64,000 nt of DNA from positions 3,968,001 through 4,032,000 of the forward strand of contig NZ_FXUY01000001.1 in the NCBI RefSeq assembly GCF_900182985.1. Direction: 5' to 3'. Positions within the stretch are counted from its first letter, which is position 1; every line of letters starts with the position of its first letter. The DNA is from Pseudomonas helmanticensis. Its GTDB lineage: Bacteria > Pseudomonadota > Gammaproteobacteria > Pseudomonadales > Pseudomonadaceae. This document shows, in pieces, positions 1 through 12,621 of the stretch. Position numbers and translations under genes: made by a program. The notes beneath the pieces are model-generated. The model was not told where the DNA came from and made no database searches. It worked only from the letters and a program-made list of their open reading frames with translations.

Positions 1-2
1 AA

Positions 3-137
3 AAAACCGAAAATCTGTATCTCTCCCTGCGCCGGGAAAATCGCCAGTATTTCCTCAGCCTTGGCGAACCACTTTCTGGCTCTACCTTGCGCGCCAACAC
101 CCTCTGGATGTCTTCCGGCACCAGAGCGCAAAACTGA
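3..137 (+). CDS. C-terminal fragment of an unknown protein (gene starts before the window)
   Basis: An open frame enters from the left edge (codons start at base 3) and stops at TGA 135-137. It encodes 44 residues beginning KTENLYLSLRREN and ending LWMSSGTRAQN. The composition looks like a genuine protein end: alternating hydrophobic residues, and Leu/Arg codons in host style. No family is recognised. The next 160 bases before the SbnA-like gene are AT-richer and carry no obvious terminator. Confidence 0.5.
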   Translation, partial: KTENLYLSLRRENRQYFLSLGEPLSGSTLRANTLWMSSGTRAQN

Positions 138-299: not shown

Positions 300-1274
300 A
301 TGATCAAACAACTTATCAATGAAGATAGTTATGTGCAGATCGAGGATCTTTGCAGCGCAAGGATTCAATTGAAGATCGAAGGACTGAATCCTGCCGGATC
401 CATCAAGCTCAAAACCGCTCACGCGATCATCTCCGACCTGGAAGGTCGCGGATTGATCAGCCGCAATACCCGCCTGATCGAATCGTCATCAGGCAACCTC
501 GGCGTGGCGCTGGCCATGGTCTGCGCAGCCAAGGGCTACAAATTTGTCTGCGTGATCGATCCGAATATTTCTGCGCCGAACAGAAAGCTGATGCACGCCC
601 TCGGTGCCGAAATGCTCATGGTTGATCAGCGCGACGAAAACGGCGGGTACCTGAACTCGCGGATTCGTCTGATCGAGCAACTGGTCGCCGACAACGCCGA
701 CTACATCTGGCTCAATCAATACAAGAACCCGGTCAACCCGCTGGCGCACTACCAGGCCACGGCCAAGTCCATTGCCCACAAGTTTCCACACGTCGACTAC
801 CTCTTCGTCGGCGCTGGCACTACCGGCACGCTGATGGGCTGCAAGAACTACTTCGCCGAACATCACCCACGCACCAAAGTCATCGCCGTCGATACCGTCG
901 GTTCGGTCACTTTCGGCTTGCCTGGCGGTACACGCCATATTCCGGGGCTCGGCACCAGCCGCCGTCCGGAAATCTTCGAACCGGCCGGCATCCACGATTT
1001 CCTGTCCATCCCGGAGGAGCAGACGATCAAGATCTGCCGCTGGCTGGCGCAACGCTACGGCCTGCTTTTCGGTGGTTCCACCGGCACGGTCCTGGCCGGT
1101 GTTCAGCAATGGGCGCACCACATCCGTCCCGACGATGTGGTGGTGGCGATTTCACCGGACATGGGTGAGCGCTACCTCGAAACCATCTACTCCGACGACT
1201 GGGTCACCCAACGCATCGGCGCATCAGCATTGCAACCTCTCTTCCCAGAAATCGCTCTGGCACTTTCGGCGTAA
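300..1274 (+). CDS. SbnA-like PLP synthase (predicted ACEGA synthase for L-Dap formation)
   Basis: This is a 324-residue fold type II PLP enzyme of the cysteine synthase superfamily. Visible are the PLP lysine (NPAGSIK, about K36), the substrate loop SSSGNLG (about residues 62-68) and the phosphate-binding loop GAGTTGT near residue 172. Its short length, and an adjacent ornithine-cyclodeaminase-family gene 6 bases downstream, match the SbnA/SbnB pair of staphyloferrin B biosynthesis. In that pair SbnA joins O-phosphoserine and glutamate to N-(1-amino-1-carboxyethyl)-glutamate, and SbnB oxidatively splits this to L-2,3-diaminopropionate. The function here is inferred from family and pairing. 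An ordinary cysteine synthase is less likely because of the partner. It is the first gene of a run in which 2306-4707 overlap. Confidence 0.75.
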   Translation: MIKQLINEDSYVQIEDLCSARIQLKIEGLNPAGSIKLKTAHAIISDLEGRGLISRNTRLIESSSGNLGVALAMVCAAKGYKFVCVIDPNISAPNRKLMHALGAEMLMVDQRDENGGYLNSRIRLIEQLVADNADYIWLNQYKNPVNPLAHYQATAKSIAHKFPHVDYLFVGAGTTGTLMGCKNYFAEHHPRTKVIAVDTVGSVTFGLPGGTRHIPGLGTSRRPEIFEPAGIHDFLSIPEEQTIKICRWLAQRYGLLFGGSTGTVLAGVQQWAHHIRPDDVVVAISPDMGERYLETIYSDDWVTQRIGASALQPLFPEIALALSA

Positions 1275-1280
1275 TCCCTC

Positions 1281-2312
1281 ATGACCACACAATCATTGCT
1301 TCGACCATTCCACGTGATTCCTGGCGCCGCCATCAAGAACATCCTCGACGAACTTCGTCAGGAAGCCATCGAGATCGTTGCCCAGACCTACCTGACCCAC
1401 GAACGTGGCGAAACCGTTAACCCCGACAGCTACTTCCTGCGTTTCCCGGAACAGCCGGCGAACCGGATCATTGCCCTACCGGCGGCGATCATCGACAGCG
1501 AAGGCGATCAGTCAGTCTCCGGGATCAAGTGGATTGCCAGTTATCCGGACAACATCAAGTCGGGAATCCCGCGCGCGTCTGCGGTGCTGATTCTTAACGA
1601 TCCGGACACCGGATATCCGTACGCGCTGCTCGAAGGCGCGCTGATCAGTGCAGTCAGAACCGCCGCGTCCGCAGTGCTCGGCGCCTGGTGGCTGAACGGT
1701 CGGAACAAGCGCGCATCGCGGCTTTCGATCATTGGCGGCGGCGTGATTGCACGCAATATCCTCGAGACGTTCTTCAGCGATGACTGGTCGTTCGACCGAG
1801 TTGAAATCCACGACCTCAACGCTGACTCGGCTCAGGCGCTGGCGACATTCGGTGAACAACTCGGCTTGCCGGATGTACAACAGGTTTCACTGGAACAGGC
1901 GCTGAGCGCTGACGTCGTGGTTTTTGCCACCAGCGCCGGCGAACCCTACGTCAACGGCAAAGGCACATTCCGCCCGGGGCAGATCGTGCTGAACATCTCG
2001 CTACGGGATATCGGCGCGGAGATCATCGAGGAAAGTTACAACTACTTCGATGACATCACCCATTGCCTGAAAGCCAATACCTCGCCACATCTGGCGGAAC
2101 AGAAATACGGTCATCGTGATTTCGTCACCGGCACCGTTGCGCAGTTGATTCGCGGCGACCTGCAGGTCACTCGCGACAAGCCGTTGATCTATTCGCCGTT
2201 CGGCATGGGCATTCTTGATCTGGCAATCGGCCGGATGATTCATGACATCGCGGTCAACGAAGGCTCGGCTGTCGCCATTCCATCCTTCTTCGGGGAGGAG
2301 CGCAGATGGTGA
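1281..2312 (+). CDS. SbnB-like dehydrogenase (ornithine cyclodeaminase/mu-crystallin family)
   Basis: This 343-residue protein begins 6 bases after the SbnA-like gene and overlaps the next gene by 7 bases, so the three are probably co-translated. It shows an N-terminal dimerisation and substrate region (SYFLRFPEQPANRIIALPAAI), a Rossmann NAD-binding segment (RLSIIGGGVIARNILETF, about residue 146), and the family's C-terminal region (YSPFGMGILDLAIG). In the SbnB branch the enzyme performs NAD-dependent oxidative hydrolysis of the SbnA product, giving L-2,3-diaminopropionate and 2-oxoglutarate. That reaction is inferred from the pairing. An ornithine cyclodeaminase or imine reductase role is the main alternative. 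Confidence 0.75.
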   Translation: MTTQSLLRPFHVIPGAAIKNILDELRQEAIEIVAQTYLTHERGETVNPDSYFLRFPEQPANRIIALPAAIIDSEGDQSVSGIKWIASYPDNIKSGIPRASAVLILNDPDTGYPYALLEGALISAVRTAASAVLGAWWLNGRNKRASRLSIIGGGVIARNILETFFSDDWSFDRVEIHDLNADSAQALATFGEQLGLPDVQQVSLEQALSADVVVFATSAGEPYVNGKGTFRPGQIVLNISLRDIGAEIIEESYNYFDDITHCLKANTSPHLAEQKYGHRDFVTGTVAQLIRGDLQVTRDKPLIYSPFGMGILDLAIGRMIHDIAVNEGSAVAIPSFFGEERRW

Positions 2313-4096
2313 TGGCTCCTCTGCATATCGGCCTGGTCGGCTGTGGGTCACGCGGGCTGTCGATTTTCGAACGCCTGCTGAGCCTCGCCGAAGAGCGCCC
2401 GGATCAGCCGGTGATCATCGACATTTTTGATCCCAATGTACTCGGCAGCGGCGCGCACTGGCCGGATCAACCCGATTACCTGCTGCTCAATACCGTTGCC
2501 GGACAACTGGGTGTGTTCCCTGATGTGCCGGCGCTGGGAAATCTGCAGGATGCGCGCGAGCGGCCGGGTCCGGACTTCCTCGCCTGGTGCCTGCAGCAGC
2601 GCATCAAGGTCGATCCCGAGAGCGGCCTGCTGGCCCAAGAGGGACGAGACGTCGAGCCGCAGGATTTCCTCCCGCGACACTTGCTCGGCGCTTATCTGGC
2701 GGACGCCTTTGCGCAAATCCTCGCGACGGCGCCGCACTGGGTCAGCGTGCACCTGCATCATCAGGCCGTTACGGCGGTGGAGGCCCTTGAAGGCCATCAA
2801 TACGTGTTGCGCACGGCCTCTGGTAAGTCGGCGACCGTCGATCGACTGATCCTGACCGTCGGCCATACAGGCCGTGTGCGCCCCGCCGACCCAGAGCGCA
2901 TCGAAGACGTCTATCCGTTGCCCGGCAGCCTCACCAGCATCGAGCCGGGTGAAACCGTGCTGATCGAAGGCCTCGGCCTTGGCGCGATGGATACCTTGGC
3001 GGCGCTGACCGCCGGCCGGGGCGGTCAGTACAAGCAGATGGCAGACGCCAGTCACGTGTACCACCCCTCTGGCCAGGAGCCGGTGATCTACATTCAGTCA
3101 CGCGACGGGCTGCCATTTCGCACCCGGCCCAATGGTCTGATCGATTTTGCCCGGCATCAGGCGGTACTTCTGACGAGTGCGCGGATCGAAGACTTGCGCG
3201 TGCATGCAAAGAACCGTCAACTGGACTTCGAGCACGACATTCTGCCGATCATGCTGCTGGAGATGCGTGCCGCCGCAGTCGCCGTCCTGCACGCCAAATC
3301 AAAGCCCGAACAGCATCGCGAAGTACTCGACCGCCTCAGGGCTGTCAGCGTCCCGGGAAGCGCCGGCATAGCCGCTTGCGAAACGCTGCTGCGCGAATAC
3401 GAAGAGCACGCCGGTTCGATCAATCCGCAGGCGCTGATCTGGCATGCACTGCCCGACAGCGTGACGCCGCACAACTATCACTCGTGGATCTATCACGCGC
3501 TCGAAGCCGACTTGCACGAGGCGCGGCTTGGGCGCGGTGAATCAGCGATCAAGGCAGCCATTGAAGTCTGGCGCGATCTGCGCGACCGACTGCGTCAAGC
3601 CGTCGATTTCGACGGGCTGACCGACGCCTCGCACCGGCAGTTCTATGGCCGTTGGCACAAGGCGATCAACCGCTTGGTCGCCGGCCCGCAGAAGGAGCGT
3701 CACGCCGACCTGCTCGCACTGTGTGACGCCGGTCTGTTGACGTTTCTCAAGCCGGGCACACAACCCGCGACCGCGCATTACCGCCGCGTCGCCGGCTATG
3801 TCCAGGGCAGCGGGGTGAGCAACAGCGATTGCGCGCCGGTACGCGATCTGGCCCGCCTCGGTTTCATCCGCCCGCGCACCGATGAACCGGGCATCGACGG
3901 CATCGATGTCGACGCTGCCTGCCATCCAAAATCAAGTCAGGGTGAACCGGTACGCAACATCTGGGTACTCGGCCCGCTTGCCGAAGGCTCCTGCTACTAC
4001 AACCACTACGTCACTTCGGCCGGCGCGCCTTCGCGTCTGTTCATGGACGCACATCGAGCGGCCACCGCAATCCTTGAGGCAGGTACTCCAGCATGA
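2306..4096 (+). CDS. FAD/NAD(P)-binding protein of a biosynthetic cluster
   Basis: This is a 596-residue protein with an N-terminal dinucleotide-binding motif (IGLVGCGSRGLSIFERLL, residues about 7-24) and an acidic strand end (IIDIFDP). The conserved GSGAHWPDQPDYLLLNTVAGQ region follows. This pattern fits the FAD-NAD(P)-binding family PF13454, whose members are poorly characterised flavoproteins related to amine/N-hydroxylating enzymes. It overlaps both neighbours (7 bases upstream, 4 bases downstream). By position it probably modifies the diaminopropionate or a derivative, for example by N-oxidation. The reaction is not known. No signal peptide is visible, so it should be cytosolic. Confidence 0.65.
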   Translation: MVMAPLHIGLVGCGSRGLSIFERLLSLAEERPDQPVIIDIFDPNVLGSGAHWPDQPDYLLLNTVAGQLGVFPDVPALGNLQDARERPGPDFLAWCLQQRIKVDPESGLLAQEGRDVEPQDFLPRHLLGAYLADAFAQILATAPHWVSVHLHHQAVTAVEALEGHQYVLRTASGKSATVDRLILTVGHTGRVRPADPERIEDVYPLPGSLTSIEPGETVLIEGLGLGAMDTLAALTAGRGGQYKQMADASHVYHPSGQEPVIYIQSRDGLPFRTRPNGLIDFARHQAVLLTSARIEDLRVHAKNRQLDFEHDILPIMLLEMRAAAVAVLHAKSKPEQHREVLDRLRAVSVPGSAGIAACETLLREYEEHAGSINPQALIWHALPDSVTPHNYHSWIYHALEADLHEARLGRGESAIKAAIEVWRDLRDRLRQAVDFDGLTDASHRQFYGRWHKAINRLVAGPQKERHADLLALCDAGLLTFLKPGTQPATAHYRRVAGYVQGSGVSNSDCAPVRDLARLGFIRPRTDEPGIDGIDVDAACHPKSSQGEPVRNIWVLGPLAEGSCYYNHYVTSAGAPSRLFMDAHRAATAILEAGTPA

Positions 4097-4707
4097 AACT
4101 TTTCTACCAGACGCATTCGCCTTACGCCCGCAAGGTGCTGGTGCTCGCTCATGAACTCGGGATCGCTGCGGACCTTGAGGTGATACATCACGAGACCAGC
4201 CCGACCTCGCCAAACGCAGTGATCTACCAGGCCAACCCCTTGGGCAAGGTCCCGGTGCTGATCCTCCCCGACGAGACGGCACTGTTCGACTCCATCGTGA
4301 TTTGTGAATACCTCGACGACCTGAGCCAAGGGTCGAAATTCATCCCGCCAAGCGGCCCCGAACGCTACAAGGCTCTGCGTCTGCAGGCGTTGGCGCAGGG
4401 CATGTGCGATGTCGGCATCAAGCTGCGCTGGGAAGTCGAGCGTCGCCCGGAGGCCTTGCGCTATCCGGCCTACGCCGAGGGCCAGGCCTACAAACTCAAA
4501 GAGGCCTACCGCTTCATCGAAGAGCACGTCGACCTCAATGGCCCGATCACCATCGGCCACATCGCCTTGGCGACCGCACTCGACTGGATTGCCTTTCGCG
4601 AGCTGTCGGATTTTTCCGCGCAGCAGCGCCTGACCGAGTGGTATCAGACTTTTTGTGAGCGTGCGTCCATGCGGGCGACCGAATACAGCGGGCAGACTCA
4701 CGATTAA
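4093..4707 (+). CDS. Glutathione S-transferase-like protein
   Basis: This 204-residue protein has the two-domain GST layout. An N-terminal thioredoxin-like half (KLFYQTHSPYARKVLVLAHE, then NPLGKVPVLILPD with the conserved cis-Pro, and FDSIVICEYLDD) is followed by an all-helical C-terminal half. The ATG overlaps the stop of the flavoprotein gene as ATGA, so translation is coupled. The S-P-Y-A-R motif suggests a catalytic Ser rather than Tyr or Cys. GSTs inside biosynthetic operons often act in conjugation, isomerisation or self-protection. Which applies here cannot be read from the sequence. Confidence 0.75.
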   Translation: MKLFYQTHSPYARKVLVLAHELGIAADLEVIHHETSPTSPNAVIYQANPLGKVPVLILPDETALFDSIVICEYLDDLSQGSKFIPPSGPERYKALRLQALAQGMCDVGIKLRWEVERRPEALRYPAYAEGQAYKLKEAYRFIEEHVDLNGPITIGHIALATALDWIAFRELSDFSAQQRLTEWYQTFCERASMRATEYSGQTHD

Positions 4708-4724
4708 GTTAAGGAAAACTGTGT

Positions 4725-6149
4725 ATGACTTCGCTCTTGTTGCAAATGTCGCCGATCGGTCTGGTGATCGCGCTGATACTCATCGTCCGCCGGCCACCGG
4801 TACAAGCCGCGCTGGCGGGCGTGGCGCTGGTGTTCCTGTTATGGGCACTGGGCGCTGCCGGACCGGTGTCGGCAGCGATCACCACGGCTATTTTTCAGGA
4901 CACCACGATCCTGTTTCTCAGCACCGCCTGCGTGATCGTGCCGGGGCTGGCGTTCGTCATATTGGTTGAACGCGGTGGCGCACCTCAGGCCATCGGCGCC
5001 TGGGTCAAGGAGCTCGGCTGGACACCGCCGGCACAAGTCATCTTCATCGTCCTCGGCCTCGCGCCGCTGCTTGAAGCGATGACCGGTTTTGGCGTCTCGC
5101 TGATTGCCACAGTGCCGCTGTTGATGGGCCTGTTCACCCGTCAGTCGGGGATGAAAATCGCCCTCGCCGGCATGGTCATCATGCCGTGGGGCACGTTGGG
5201 CCTGGCGACGGTGATCGGTGCGTTGCTGGCGCATTTGCCGGCGGAAACACTTGGCAGCCACTCGGCGCTGATCAGCGCCCCGGTGTTCCTCTGCCTGGCC
5301 GCCATCGCTTTGTGGCAAGCCGGGATCCGCACCGTGGCTCCGTGGCTCGGGCTGATGGTGGTCACCGCGCTGTTCATCGCCGTGCTGTTTTCGATCAACC
5401 TGTGGATCGGGCCGGAAGTGTCCGGTGTGCTGGCCGGCCTTGCCGTGGCCTGCGTCGGCCTCGGCATTTCCTTTTCGCAGCGCAAAAAACTGGTGCGCTG
5501 GCCGAGCGCGGCGTGGCCGTATCTGGCCTTGCTGGGCGTCATCGTCGCCTCGCGCGGGCTGTTTGTGCTGTCGGGCTGGGATGCGCTGTGGGTCATCAAG
5601 GGCGAGCATGTTTCGTGGAAGCCTCTGGCGTCCCCGGGCTTGGCGTTGCTGATCGTCACCTTGCTGATGGCCGTCAGACAAGCCACGCCCACAGGTTTCC
5701 CATGGCGCGCACTGTTCAACCGGGCGAAGTTTCCGGTCACGACGATTTTCCTGTTTCTGCTGCTGTCGCAGGTGATGGTCAACGCCGGATTTCTGGTCGA
5801 GGCGCAACGCACTCTGCAATCGTTGTCGGGGATTTCCCTGGCGCCGACGATCGCCTTGCTGGCGGGTATTGCCGGTTATGTCACCGGGTCCAATGTCGGC
5901 GGCAACACCCTCGTCATGCCGTCGATTGCGGCACTGACCAGCGAGCACGGGCCATGGCTGGCCGCGATGGTCAACAGTGCGGCCGGGCATGGTGCGCTGG
6001 GGTCGTTATCGATTCTGTCGCTGATCACCGGGCTGGCGGGCGCCAACCGGCAGGAAGAAAACGGCCTGATTCGATTCGCTTTCGGCCTGGTTGCCCTGAA
6101 CATCGTCATTGTTGCTGCAACGGGGATGGTTTTACTCTATTTTCTCTGA
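4725..6149 (+). CDS. LctP-type (L-lactate permease family) transporter
   Basis: This is a 474-residue, highly hydrophobic protein with roughly 12-13 membrane segments. The LctP family signature region is present (LAPLLEAMTGFGVSLIATVP, about residues 110-130), as is the later GSNVGGNTLVMPSI segment. The start is preceded by AAGGAAAA at a suitable distance, 17 bases after the GST gene. Known LctP members move lactate or glycolate. In this setting the substrate may instead be a small carboxylate precursor or the cluster product. Direction and substrate are unknown. Confidence 0.7.
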   Translation: MTSLLLQMSPIGLVIALILIVRRPPVQAALAGVALVFLLWALGAAGPVSAAITTAIFQDTTILFLSTACVIVPGLAFVILVERGGAPQAIGAWVKELGWTPPAQVIFIVLGLAPLLEAMTGFGVSLIATVPLLMGLFTRQSGMKIALAGMVIMPWGTLGLATVIGALLAHLPAETLGSHSALISAPVFLCLAAIALWQAGIRTVAPWLGLMVVTALFIAVLFSINLWIGPEVSGVLAGLAVACVGLGISFSQRKKLVRWPSAAWPYLALLGVIVASRGLFVLSGWDALWVIKGEHVSWKPLASPGLALLIVTLLMAVRQATPTGFPWRALFNRAKFPVTTIFLFLLLSQVMVNAGFLVEAQRTLQSLSGISLAPTIALLAGIAGYVTGSNVGGNTLVMPSIAALTSEHGPWLAAMVNSAAGHGALGSLSILSLITGLAGANRQEENGLIRFAFGLVALNIVIVAATGMVLLYFL

Positions 6150-6178
6150 ATTGTTTCCAGGAATGACCAAGAGAACTT

Positions 6179-7657
6179 ATGGACAGGTTTGATCTACCGG
6201 ACAAGCGCTGGCGAATCGTCAAGGACTGGATTATTCGTCAGATCGAAAGTGGTGAATGGGCAGCTGAGTCCAAGCTGCCATCGATTCGGTCCCTGGCCCG
6301 AATGTTTGAAACCAGCATCACCACCGTCCAGCGTGCACTGGCTGACCTGGAAGCCGATGCCTATGTTTCCACCATCCCGCGCGTCGGCTATTTCGTGTCC
6401 ACAGCCGGTAAAGCCAAACCAGCCAACGGTTTCGACTTTTCCAGTGTCACCGTCAACGTCAATCACGCCGTGGTCGCGATGCTCTCCCAAGCAGCGTCGC
6501 GCACCACTGCATCATTGAGTTCAGCGGTGCTGCACAGCGATCTGACGCCGCACGTGTTATTGAACAAATGCCTTTCGGTAATGGCCGGCAAGGCCGACAA
6601 CTCGCTGACCGGCCTGGTGGCACCGCCCGGTCTTCCAGCACTACGTCGGCGCATTGCCGGGCTGATGCTGACGCGCGGGGTCGTCTGCGGCCCGGACGAT
6701 ATCCTCGTGACCTCGGGCGACACTGTCGCGCTTGAACTGGCACTCGAAGCCGTCGCGACCAAGGGCTCGACGGTGGCCATCGAGACGCCGACCTACTACG
6801 GCATCCTGCAGACCATCGAACGGCTGGGCATGCGCGCCTTGCCGATTCGCACCCACGGCGAACTGGGCATCGACGTCGATCACCTCGAAGAAGCCCTGAA
6901 GCAGAAAAAAGTCTCGGTGATTTTTCTCAATCCCACCCTGCAGAATCCACGTGGCTTCATCATGCCGGATGAGACCCGGGCCAGGCTTTCACAGATTGCT
7001 CGCGAAGCGGATGTGCCGATTATCGAGGACGATATTTTCTTCGATCTGGTACCTGAGGGAGAACGTCCGCGCGCGATCAAAAGCTACGACAGCAGCGGAC
7101 AGACGATTTACTGCTCATCATTTTCGAAAACGGTCGCGCCGGGTTACCGCGTCGGCTGGTGCGTCGCCGGCAGATACCGCGAGGCGATTCTTGCGCAAAT
7201 GTTCTCGCGCAATCTGGCCGTTTCCAGCCTCGCGCAAAATGTCCTCAACGAGTTCATCGGGCGCGGCTACATGGAGGAGCATTGCGCACGACTGAGGTCG
7301 CAATTGTCGTCGCTGGCGAACTTTGTCGAAACGCTGGTACGCACTGAGTTTCCCTTCGGAACGGTCTACGTGCCACCGCGCGGAGGATTCATCCACTGGA
7401 TCAAGTTACCCGCGCATACGGACATGCAAGCACTCGAACGGCTGGCCAGTGAACGCGGTTGCCACGTGGCCGGCAGTGGGATCTTTTTCGCCGATGGGCA
7501 GCCCTCCACCGGTCTGCGCATCTGCCTGGGTACCACGCTGTCACCGGGGGTGATGCAAATTTTGCAAGTGATTGCCGAATGCGCGCACCTCGCCGCAGGA
7601 CCCTCGAATGTGCGGCTGAAACTGGCGGACTCTCGCGAGGAGCCAGTGCTTCCCTAG
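6179..7657 (+). CDS. MocR-type regulator (GntR winged helix plus aminotransferase domain)
   Basis: This 492-residue protein has a GntR winged-helix domain (RWRIVKDWIIRQIESGEW...SKLPSIRSLARMF...TTVQRALADL, residues about 8-75). A fold type I aminotransferase-like domain follows, with the PLP lysine in SSFSKTVAPGYRVGW (about K317) and the aspartate region PIIEDDIFFDL. MocR regulators sense amino acids or PLP adducts and normally control adjacent genes. It lies 29 bases after the permease on the same strand and probably regulates the SbnAB-like cluster in response to an amino compound. That role is inference. Confidence 0.8.
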   Translation: MDRFDLPDKRWRIVKDWIIRQIESGEWAAESKLPSIRSLARMFETSITTVQRALADLEADAYVSTIPRVGYFVSTAGKAKPANGFDFSSVTVNVNHAVVAMLSQAASRTTASLSSAVLHSDLTPHVLLNKCLSVMAGKADNSLTGLVAPPGLPALRRRIAGLMLTRGVVCGPDDILVTSGDTVALELALEAVATKGSTVAIETPTYYGILQTIERLGMRALPIRTHGELGIDVDHLEEALKQKKVSVIFLNPTLQNPRGFIMPDETRARLSQIAREADVPIIEDDIFFDLVPEGERPRAIKSYDSSGQTIYCSSFSKTVAPGYRVGWCVAGRYREAILAQMFSRNLAVSSLAQNVLNEFIGRGYMEEHCARLRSQLSSLANFVETLVRTEFPFGTVYVPPRGGFIHWIKLPAHTDMQALERLASERGCHVAGSGIFFADGQPSTGLRICLGTTLSPGVMQILQVIAECAHLAAGPSNVRLKLADSREEPVLP

Positions 7658-9942: not shown

Positions 9943-10917
9943 ATGAGCTATCAGGACACGCCCGCAATGCAGAATATGCCGTCAAAGTCAGCGATTCTGA
10001 AGGCCATGTCAGGTGAACCCTTCAAGGAAGCCGCCGCCGACGGTTTTATCCTGGGTGGTTTCATCTGGCGCCATGCGTTGCCCGATCCCCAGCGTGCGGT
10101 GGTCATCATCAACGCTGCGACGTCTGTGCGCTGCCGCCACTACGGGCGATTCGCGGCTTATCTGTTCGCCAATGGCTTCGACGTCATCACCTATGACTAT
10201 CGCGGCATTGGCGAATCGCGATCCGCCTCGATCAAAGGGCTGGACGCGTCATGGACAGATTGGGGCGCCCTGGATTTCGAAGCGATGCTCAAGCGGGCGC
10301 AACGGCAGTTTCCCGGGCAGCCGATTGATGTGGTCGGTCACAGCTTTGGCGGTTGTGCGGCGGGACTGGGTGAGTCCGGGCGAGTTATCCGACGGTTGGT
10401 CACCGTCGGTGCGCAGTTCGCTTACTGGCGCGATTACGCCCCCGAACAGCGCTGGCGGATGTTCGGCAAATGGCATTTGCTGATGCCGTTGCTGACGCTG
10501 CTCTGCGGCTATTTTCCCGGAAAGCGTCTCGGCTGGCTGGAAGACACGCCAAGCGGCGTCGTGCGTGACTGGAGCAAGCCTGCCGCGCGTTATGAACAGC
10601 GCCCCAGCGGTCGCGCATTGCTGGAAAAAACCGGCGCCCTGCCCTTCGCCAACGTCGGCGCACAAACCCTCGCCATCAGCATCAGCGACGATCCCTACGG
10701 CACGATTGCGGCCATCGAACGCCTGCTCGGCTACTTCAGCAATGCGCAAAAAACCCACCTGCGCATCGCCCCACAGGACATTGGCGAACAACAAGTCGGA
10801 CATTTCGCCTTTTTTCGCAGCGCATACCAAGCCACACTATGGCCCATCGCTCTGACCTGGCTGCAAACCGGCGCACTGGCCCCCGACACACCCGGGCGGC
10901 AAGTCCCGCGCAGCTAA
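9943..10917 (+). CDS. Alpha/beta hydrolase
   Basis: This 324-residue alpha/beta hydrolase has the nucleophile elbow GHSFGG (VVGHSFGGCAAGL, about residue 131) and the strand-turn region YDYRGIGESR typical of serine-aminopeptidase-like hydrolases. The likely acid (SISDDPYG) and the terminal His (QQVGHFAFF) are visible, so the triad looks complete. It has no signal peptide. The substrate is unknown. It is followed after 29 bases by a small basic-N-terminus protein and may be co-transcribed with it. Confidence 0.75.
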   Translation: MSYQDTPAMQNMPSKSAILKAMSGEPFKEAAADGFILGGFIWRHALPDPQRAVVIINAATSVRCRHYGRFAAYLFANGFDVITYDYRGIGESRSASIKGLDASWTDWGALDFEAMLKRAQRQFPGQPIDVVGHSFGGCAAGLGESGRVIRRLVTVGAQFAYWRDYAPEQRWRMFGKWHLLMPLLTLLCGYFPGKRLGWLEDTPSGVVRDWSKPAARYEQRPSGRALLEKTGALPFANVGAQTLAISISDDPYGTIAAIERLLGYFSNAQKTHLRIAPQDIGEQQVGHFAFFRSAYQATLWPIALTWLQTGALAPDTPGRQVPRS

Positions 10918-10946
10918 GCCCCAATCAACGCACGACGGAACACATC

Positions 10947-11360
10947 ATGGCCTCCGCCAACAAGCAGCAAAAACGCGCCACCCGGGCCAAAGCCAAGGCC
11001 AAGCAGAACCGCACCAAACGCGCCGAAGCGCCGGTCGAGCTGGACCCGAACGACGATCGTATCGACTTCGAGTCGGTGGACCTCACCGAACTGTTCAAGA
11101 AAATGATCGACGCCGAAAAGATCAGCCAGCAAGCCCTGTGCAGCGCCTTCCTCGAAGACCCGCTGCTGGAACTGGTCTATGAGCAGGAAGGCGAAGAAGG
11201 CGCAATGGATTTCATCCTCGCCGCCCTGATCGAGTATCGCCAGTGGTCGCAGGAAACCGACGAGGCCGGCGCGCTGGCGTGGATCGAATCACCGGCCTTC
11301 CAGGCCGACTATGTGGCGGCGTCCGACGCGATCGCCGCAAACACCCAACAGAAGAACTGA
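10947..11360 (+). CDS. Conserved hypothetical with Lys/Arg/Ala-rich N-terminus (paralogue 1)
   Basis: The start is placed at ATG 10947 (MASANKQQKRATRAKAKAKQ) because this N-terminus matches the next gene. Longer in-frame starts would lie inside the hydrolase gene. The 137-residue product has a strongly basic first 25 residues and then an acidic helical domain (LTELFKKMIDAEKISQQ... ALIEYRQWSQETDEAGALAWIESPAF). It is homologous over its length to the product of 11367-11819, six bases downstream, so the pair is a tandem duplication. The basic tail could bind RNA or DNA; this is a guess. Confidence 0.7.
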   Translation: MASANKQQKRATRAKAKAKQNRTKRAEAPVELDPNDDRIDFESVDLTELFKKMIDAEKISQQALCSAFLEDPLLELVYEQEGEEGAMDFILAALIEYRQWSQETDEAGALAWIESPAFQADYVAASDAIAANTQQKN

Positions 11361-11366
11361 ACTCCC

Positions 11367-11819
11367 ATGGCATCCCTGAACAAGCAACAGAAACGCGCCA
11401 AGCGCGCCAAGGCCAAAGCCAAGCAAATCCGTATGGTCGGCCGCAAGCCGCTGGAGCAGGACGAAGACCTCGACCACCTCGCCGAGCCGATCCCGGAATA
11501 CACCCTGGCGATGTTCAGCAAAATGCGCGACGCCGAAGCCATCAGCCGCAACGAAATGCTGCTGACGCTGCTGCGCGAACTGGCGTTCGTCATCGTTGAT
11601 CATCCAGAACTGCTGGACATGGAAAACGCCGATGACGAAGGCATGGCCGCCACCCACCTGGCCGCCGACATGTTGATCGACTACCGCATGTGGGCTGAAG
11701 GCGTAACGATCGAAGAAGCCCAGGCCTGGCTGAGCGAGCCACAGTTCATCACCGATTTCGGGGTTGCGCTGGATGCTTATGGCAAGTCGGTGGAAGCGCA
11801 GGAAGACAAGAGCGAATAA
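11367..11819 (+). CDS. Conserved hypothetical with Lys/Arg/Ala-rich N-terminus (paralogue 2)
   Basis: This 150-residue protein begins MASLNKQQKRAKRAKAKAKQ, nearly identical to the N-terminus of the gene just upstream. The rest is more diverged but keeps the same helical pattern: FSKMRDAEAISRNEM, DMLIDYRMWAEGVTIEEAQAWLSEPQF. A bidirectional terminator follows directly (11824-11872). No known domain is recognised. The pair looks like a translation- or nucleoid-associated accessory protein family, but the sequence shows only the basic tail and acidic body. Confidence 0.7.
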   Translation: MASLNKQQKRAKRAKAKAKQIRMVGRKPLEQDEDLDHLAEPIPEYTLAMFSKMRDAEAISRNEMLLTLLRELAFVIVDHPELLDMENADDEGMAATHLAADMLIDYRMWAEGVTIEEAQAWLSEPQFITDFGVALDAYGKSVEAQEDKSE

Positions 11820-11983: not shown

Positions 11984-12214
11984 ATGGAACAGACCACAAT
12001 TTTCATGAGCAATAGAAGTCAGGCAGTTCGACTGCCAAAGGCAGTTGCGATGCCCGGCGACGTTAAACGAGTGGAAGTCATCGCGATTGGCAGAACACGC
12101 GTCATTACGCCTGCTGGAGAAAGCTGGGATAGCTGGTTTGATGGCGACAGCGTCACACCTGATTTCATGGCTGACCGTGAGCAACCTGCTGATCAGGAGC
12201 GCGAGTCGTTCTGA
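11984..12214 (+). CDS. vapB: VapB-type antitoxin (AbrB-like)
   Basis: This 76-residue protein begins with a swapped-hairpin AbrB/SpoVT-like DNA-binding domain (MSNRSQAVRLPK signature, residues 8-19). An acidic, flexible C-terminus (SWDSWFDGDS...) follows and should wrap the toxin. A strong GGAGG site precedes the ATG, and its stop overlaps the toxin start by one base (TGATG), as is usual for vapBC pairs. It should neutralise VapC and repress the promoter at 11921-11948. Confidence 0.9.
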   Translation: MEQTTIFMSNRSQAVRLPKAVAMPGDVKRVEVIAIGRTRVITPAGESWDSWFDGDSVTPDFMADREQPADQERESF

Positions 12215-12621
12215 TGATCAAATACATGCTGGATACCAACATCTGCATCTTCACCATCAAAAACAAACCACAAATTGTCCGGGAGGCCTTCAATCAACAT
12301 TCCGGGCAGTTGTGCATAAGCGTTATCACGCTTATGGAGCTTATTTACGGCGCTGAAAAGTCGGCGTCCCCTGAAAAGAATCTAGCGATTGTCGAAGGAT
12401 TCGTTGCGCGATTGGAGGTCTTGCCTTTCGACAATGACGCCGCAGCACAGGCCGGGATGATCCGGTCTGAACTGGCGAAAGCTGGAACACCGATTGGGCC
12501 GTACGACCAAATGATAGCAGGCCACGCGCGGTCGCTTGGACTTATTGTAGTCACGAACAATGTGCGGGAATTTGAACGTGTTTCCGGATTGCGTATTGAG
12601 GATTGGGTTCATCCCGTTTGA
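12214..12621 (+). CDS. vapC: VapC-type PIN-domain toxin ribonuclease
   Basis: This 135-residue PIN domain has its acidic residues in place: MLDTN (N-terminal Asp), VITLMELIYG (Glu), GPYDQMIAGHARS (Asp) and TNNVREF near the end. The site therefore looks intact, giving a Mg-dependent RNase that in this family often cuts tRNA or rRNA. It is translationally coupled to VapB. The module is bounded by 49-bp repeats, which suggests recent insertion between the paralogue gene and the gabP-like gene. Confidence 0.9.
   Translation: MIKYMLDTNICIFTIKNKPQIVREAFNQHSGQLCISVITLMELIYGAEKSASPEKNLAIVEGFVARLEVLPFDNDAAAQAGMIRSELAKAGTPIGPYDQMIAGHARSLGLIVVTNNVREFERVSGLRIEDWVHPV

Follow-up and report, generated by a model that had tools for sequence, protein, structure and literature searches.

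We analysed a 64,000-nucleotide stretch of the Pseudomonas helmanticensis genome (NCBI RefSeq assembly GCF_900182985.1, contig NZ_FXUY01000001.1, positions 3,968,001 to 4,032,000 of the forward strand; hereafter, the window). Near its left end lies a block of six genes for two enzymes of the SbnA and SbnB types, a flavoprotein, a glutathione S-transferase (GST)-fold protein, an LctP-type permease and a MocR-type regulator. The operon of these six genes is probably a route from diaminopropionate to a small oxidised amino acid that needs no assembly-line enzyme. The features are as follows.

1..21, plus strand: right part of the putative MocR operator (29-bp site; genome C1:3967993-3968021, corresponding to window -7 to 21)
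300..1274, plus strand: SbnA-type enzyme, predicted first step to L-2,3-diaminopropionate (TIGR03945; best PDB matches 5d84-5d87, named SbnA)
1281..2312, plus strand: SbnB-type enzyme, predicted second step to L-2,3-diaminopropionate (TIGR03944; best PDB match 4m54)
2306..4096, plus strand: gene 3, flavoprotein of the L-aspartate N-hydroxylase (FzmM/CreE) kind, proposed diaminopropionate N-oxygenase (PF13454)
4093..4707, plus strand: gene 4, GST-fold protein, YibF-like (Pfam GST_N domains; closest PDB entry 4ibp)
4725..6149, plus strand: gene 5, LctP-type permease (PF02652)
6179..7657, plus strand: gene 6, MocR-type regulator with GntR and aminotransferase domains (PF00392 and PF00155)

Diaminopropionate synthesis genes and conservation of the block

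All six open reading frames (ORFs) were found on the plus strand with the coordinates that the initial annotation had given; the SbnA and SbnB genes are 6 bases apart, the SbnB and flavoprotein genes overlap by 7 bases and the flavoprotein and GST genes by 4 (ATGA), and gaps of 17 and 29 bases separate GST from LctP and LctP from MocR, respectively. The SbnA-type protein scored 420.7 bits against TIGR03945 (equivalog cut-off, 349.95) and 217.2 bits against the best cysteine-synthase model (cut-off, 344.15), and the SbnB-type protein scored 405.8 bits against TIGR03944 (equivalog cut-off, 326.9), with 80.2 bits for the next best model. The SbnA/SbnB identity claimed for the pair was thus upheld, and a cysteine synthase and ornithine cyclodeaminase pair was ruled out, as those models fell far below their cut-offs. 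Note that 4m54 is labelled as a putative ornithine cyclodeaminase; we take it to be S. aureus SbnB. From family membership, the two enzymes are predicted to make L-2,3-diaminopropionate from O-phosphoserine and glutamate. No IucA/IucC match was detected in the genome, and its 29 condensation-domain matches all lay more than 1.7 Mb from the block on C1 or on the other contig; the reading of the block as a siderophore synthetase locus was rejected on these results.

The same six genes in the same order were found at 15 of the 15 named Pseudomonas loci (from the named genomes scanned with gene 3), and SbnA and SbnB were internally deleted in one of these (L040; UYIF39). Neither of the outcomes that would have refuted the initial annotation (better scores as cysteine synthase and ornithine cyclodeaminase, or a block not kept together in other strains) was thus observed. 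The nearest named contigs, judged by gene 3 (96-98% identity), were those of Pseudomonas sp. DTU12.3 and RIT-PI-r. Purifying selection acts on all six genes, with ratios of nonsynonymous to synonymous substitution rates (dN/dS) of 0.05-0.21 against the window in the six loci compared. According to ORF clustering, the flanking genes vary among locus groups (at least three neighbourhoods), and therefore the block behaves as a unit. A tRNA-Phe gene was found upstream in four fluorescens-type loci (L007, L038, L041, L043; at L007:17808-17883 it lies upstream of the window, about 0.4 kb 5' of SbnA) and in the deletion locus L093, and no such gene was found at the remaining six cluster loci scanned for tRNAs. 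tRNA genes are a usual insertion place of genomic islands.

The flavoprotein, its likely substrate and the GST

Gene 3 scored 123.8 bits against PF13454 (cut-off, 21.8), in agreement with its annotation as an FAD/NAD(P) protein of this type, and it is related to the L-aspartate N-hydroxylase structures 8cp2 and 8cp5 in both sequence and full-length fold. The earlier suggestion that the product is possibly N-oxidised gains support from this kinship. SbnA and SbnB stand beside the gene-3 relative in 25 of the 28 genomes of the genus having such a relative, and 24 of the 25 genomes with SbnA over its cut-off also have a gene-3 relative; G183, the exception, has two SbnA genes over the cut-off (C1:4940120 and C1:2657611) and no gene-3 match. 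In the flavoprotein tree (in which L082 was included without its context being read), 27 SbnAB-linked flavoproteins and nine of unread context formed one branch (support, 99/96) with no SbnAB-free row, separate from the FzmM/CreE branch. Because the partnership with SbnAB is near-constant, diaminopropionate is the likely substrate of the flavoprotein.

The V2 enzyme holds aspartate by Arg13, Arg276, Asn413, Arg416 and Arg577, and its N413E substitution abolished hydroxylation (PMC10404684). In our residue table, the window flavoprotein retains Arg13, Asn62, Arg266, Arg409, Arg412 and Arg416, has Asp at 413 instead of Asn, and has His instead of Trp51; in the printed alignment, its Ser571 aligns with Arg577. 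The aspartate site has thus lost both Asn413 and Arg577. The table omits proteins shorter than 500 aa and locus ORFs shorter than 450 aa; it lists several genes twice (short and long fetch), so that its rows do not equal genomes, and its Arg276 column, misaligned in most rows, was unused. Asn413 is kept in 8cp2 and in three Streptomyces homologues adjoining a CreD-type lyase. Family searches of the six block genes, which did not extend to lyase genes further away, gave no lyase match, and therefore aspartate is an unlikely substrate. Were diaminopropionate to bind with its carboxylate where aspartate has its side-chain carboxylate, and with its alpha-ammonium close to Asp413, the beta nitrogen would point towards the flavin, leaving Arg577 without a partner.

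As for gene 4, Pfam GST N-terminal domains were matched, as annotated, the closest PDB entry was the GST-like YibF (4ibp), and the protein was found at all 15 named loci. A GST of a different kind lies immediately 3' of the flavoprotein in four of 16 SbnAB-free contexts (L070, L072, L085 and L089), which split over two tree branches. The adjacency of GST and flavoprotein hints at thiol chemistry on the oxidised product. A thiohydroximate role would follow the logic of glucosinolate and phosphonocystoximate pathways; we found no support for this role, which is one option only. At L070 and L072 (G114 and G100), which represent a further unassigned cluster with this kind of flavoprotein, the flavoprotein-GST pair stands beside an asparagine-synthase-like protein, a major facilitator superfamily transporter and a 457-aa protein that had no Pfam match; the families were run at L070.

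The permease, the regulator and their putative operator

The LctP-type protein matched PF02652 narrowly (29.6 bits; cut-off, 27), the best stretch covering less than half of the model, and no NCBIfam family was matched at E 1e-5. In the MocR-type protein, PF00392 matched at 14-73 (53.4 bits) and PF00155 (Aminotran_1_2) at 139-454 (110.5 bits); its best NCBIfam model was PdxR (249 bits, below the cut-off of 320), and no displayed MocR-type model was at its cut-off. Both assignments thus agree with the initial annotation, which had named an LctP-family permease and a MocR regulator; MocR/GabR regulators combine a GntR-type helix-turn-helix with a fold-type I aminotransferase domain. LctP proteins are known as uptake symporters, and MocR proteins use pyridoxal phosphate and sense amino compounds, which a free amino-acid product fits.

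LctP relatives of at least 78% identity were found in 17 of the 199 genomes of the genus: seven have the intact block, one has broken SbnA/SbnB genes (G178) and nine are without gene 3. MocR adjoins LctP in all eight gene-3-free genomes that were fetched; the ninth (G127), with a partial LctP gene at a contig edge, was not fetched. In G098 and G051, only a 3' piece of the GST gene remains. Around the block, G098 and the P. chlororaphis EA105 locus are colinear, apart from extra upstream sequence in G098 and a segment of ~4.2 kb (L051:7928-12168), missing in G098, that begins immediately upstream of SbnA and ends inside the GST gene; the LctP and MocR genes of G098 have no stops and gave dN/dS of 0.07-0.09 against the window. 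No GST remnant was found in the stand-alone pairs of G102, G104, G110, G170, G174 and G190, in which the making genes may have been lost or may never have been present. Seven LctP relatives have 52-54% identity, and the three of these that were fetched had no MocR match next to them. Close to the stand-alone LctP-MocR pairs (L095-L100), there is a second MocR-type gene, which is distant (24-25% identity).

A direct repeat, CTGTATT...CTGTATC with a 23-bp period, lies upstream of the stand-alone LctP genes, and the clusters have a form of it about 235-310 bp upstream of SbnA. From its distribution, we take this repeat as the putative MocR operator, to which the regulator would bind; both deletion loci retain it in front of LctP. 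From the end of this site to the start codon there are about 235-290 bases for SbnA in the clusters (window leader, 1-299) and about 70 for the stand-alone LctP genes. The pattern TGTAYTGRAAA-N(9-13)-CTGTATC was found in the present genome and in 16 of the 199 genomes, a single time in each and always with a gap of 11 bases, and the reversed control pattern gave no match in the 199. G178 is the one LctP genome of the 17 that is not among these 16, and the pattern is upstream of SbnA in 14 of the 15 named loci (exception, L040). Some of these loci served to build the pattern, so that finding it in them is partly built in, which does not apply to its lack in the other 182 genomes. Another candidate regulator site, TTGAT-N11-ATCAA, was rejected, with 19 palindromic places in the genome and none near the block. 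No Rfam match was found in the leader (L007:17900-18320), and a simple scan gave no sigma-70-like promoter upstream of SbnA.

The interpretation in the initial annotation, which had treated the six genes as one unit, is supported in part; the block reads better as two separable halves, one for making and the other for moving and sensing. The stand-alone permease-regulator pairs suggest uptake, sensing or resistance. Since operator, regulator and permease are kept without the making genes, the compound, or a similar one, is probably of consequence to non-producing cells, as if these responded to what their neighbours make.

Related clusters, proposed pathway and alternative readings

The SbnA-SbnB-flavoprotein trio was also found in a larger cluster in 17 of the 199 genomes (the second group). 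At L061, family searches identified a methionyl-tRNA-synthetase-like protein, a cupin, a DAO-type FAD oxidase and a Lys/Orn N-hydroxylase-like protein; according to ORF clustering, 16 of the 17 loci have the first and the last of these, and antisense ORFs obscured the other locus (L067). As reviewed in PMC11705231, these are components of hydrazine synthetase pathways, and the por cluster of P. orientalis is listed there with its product not known. It is likely that por itself holds the trio. Glu is frequent at 413 in the second-group flavoproteins. In eight of the 17 loci, SbnA and SbnB occupy one long frame, apparently a fused diaminopropionate synthase (L056:6738-8936; similar in L053, L055, L057, L059, L065, L066 and L069), and the L056 frame, on which the family models were run, passes both equivalog cut-offs. 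One SbnAB-linked member, L068 (G095), is a divergent trio with hydrazine-type genes and a flavoprotein on a long branch.

The trio stays together in Pseudomonas, Rhizobium and Deefgea, in differing settings. On the Deefgea piscis plasmid NZ_CP054144, SbnA, SbnB and a flavoprotein (42% identical) are followed by an L-lactate permease, as in the window, but the cluster has ThrH and a DinB-family protein, no GST and no MocR listed. Gene-3 matches were found in three of 369 genomes of the class sample and four of 398 of the phylum sample (the window's own genome in each), and 11 of the 52 plasmid records with a match were fetched; thus, the contexts outside Pseudomonas come from few loci. Five phage records have gene-3 relatives (26-29% identity over at most 77% of the query).

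We propose, with about an even chance of being right, that the block is a short carrier- and ligase-free route to N-oxidised diaminopropionate that comes with a sensor and a permease of its own. SbnA and SbnB would supply L-2,3-diaminopropionate, and the flavoprotein, with NADPH and O2, would oxidise one of its amino groups to a hydroxylamine, an oxime or a nitro group, the beta position being the likelier. The GST may conjugate, reduce or detoxify the reactive product with glutathione, which is the weakest enzymatic step; LctP would transport the product across the membrane, more likely inwards, and MocR, on the direct repeat upstream of SbnA, would control the operon in answer to an amino-acid ligand. 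A broader reading, which we hold tentatively, is that an as yet unrecorded N-oxidised diaminopropionate that diffuses between cells, such as N3-hydroxy-diaminopropionate or its oxime or 3-nitroalanine, may serve as a shared signal or public good in Pseudomonas, with producers having the whole operon and other species, which retain no more than the half with operator, LctP and MocR, taking it up or listening; the trio may then be a general amino-acid N-oxidation module, also used in the hydrazine-type clusters.

Several observations weigh against the proposed route. Asp or Glu at 413 also occurs in SbnAB-free relatives (e.g., L080, L085, L087 and L089-L092; the contexts of L087 and L091 were poorly resolved in ORF calling), and the SbnAB-linked L068 retains Asn413, without Arg13 and Arg416; therefore, the residue change is not specific to diaminopropionate. 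The GST was not seen in the second-group clusters, and its link is not universal. The Deefgea LctP is only 51% identical to that of the window, no closer than LctPs of unrelated context, and may be a separate recruitment. The dN/dS values in the deletion strains mix the time before and after the deletion, and the direction given to LctP follows what is generally known of its family.

The product may instead be a small antimetabolite, with LctP, MocR and perhaps the GST as immunity or resistance functions retained by non-producers that meet producers. Retention of LctP-MocR where the making genes are absent would be explained, and a reactive product would fit with the presence of a GST gene in the operon; however, LctP proteins are known for uptake, most of the GST is lost in both deletion strains and no target or resistance gene was recognised, and we regard this as unlikely. 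It is also quite unlikely that the flavoprotein is an ordinary aspartate N-hydroxylase giving nitrite or 3-nitropropionate, with diaminopropionate as the acceptor, so that a diazeniumdiolate or a diazo amino acid with some likeness to L-alanosine would form. The nearest characterised relative does oxidise aspartate, and alanosine clusters, as reviewed, join diaminopropionate with CreE/CreD homologues, but the loss of Asn413 and Arg577, the published effect of N413E together with the frequent Glu in the second group, and the lack in the block of the CreD-type lyase that adjoins each of the three Streptomyces Asn413 homologues all argue otherwise. We consider it improbable that diaminopropionate is a building block of a peptide or siderophore whose assembly genes lie at another genomic location, the flavoprotein and GST only modifying or protecting it. 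SbnA and SbnB are best known from siderophore and antibiotic pathways and condensation domains are present, but IucA/IucC is absent, the nonribosomal peptide synthetase genes are distant, the trio keeps together despite different settings, and LctP-MocR is retained without the making genes.

Compared with the aspartate-nitrosuccinate pathway (FzmM/CreE plus FzmL/CreD), the window block shares the flavoprotein family and full-length fold, but its flavoprotein is on a separate branch with a changed aspartate pocket, and a diaminopropionate synthase partner is present without a CreD-type lyase. As in staphyloferrin B synthesis, both SbnA and SbnB pass the equivalog cut-offs, but the genome is without a siderophore synthetase gene, and the gene of the proposed N-oxygenase comes next instead. 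L-Alanosine clusters (aln/ala) likewise combine diaminopropionate with a CreE homologue; however, according to the reviews, their diaminopropionate is carrier-bound, its proposed hydroxylation is by an acyl-CoA-dehydrogenase-like enzyme, and CreD homologues are present, none of which was found in the window block. The second group, and likely por, has the same trio plus hydrazine-synthetase-like genes, whereas the window block is without the methionyl-tRNA-synthetase-like, cupin, DAO or Lys/Orn N-hydroxylase gene. In the open-access literature, to which the search was confined (subscription papers lay outside it), neither this gene set nor relevant work on nitroalanine or N-hydroxy-diaminopropionate was found.

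If the proposal is true, diaminopropionate joins the substrates of the nitrosuccinate-synthase kind of flavoprotein, and the trio gains a role within Pseudomonas hydrazine-type clusters, whose products appear not to be known. Producers and non-producers, each genome with a single likely operator, would also offer a system for telling uptake, sensing and resistance apart experimentally.

Elsewhere in the window, two adjacent small genes (10839-11360 and 11367-11819) have similar N-termini and, by eye, appear to be a tandem duplication, and a 135-aa protein (12214-12621) resembles, also by eye, a VapC-type PIN toxin of a toxin-antitoxin pair.

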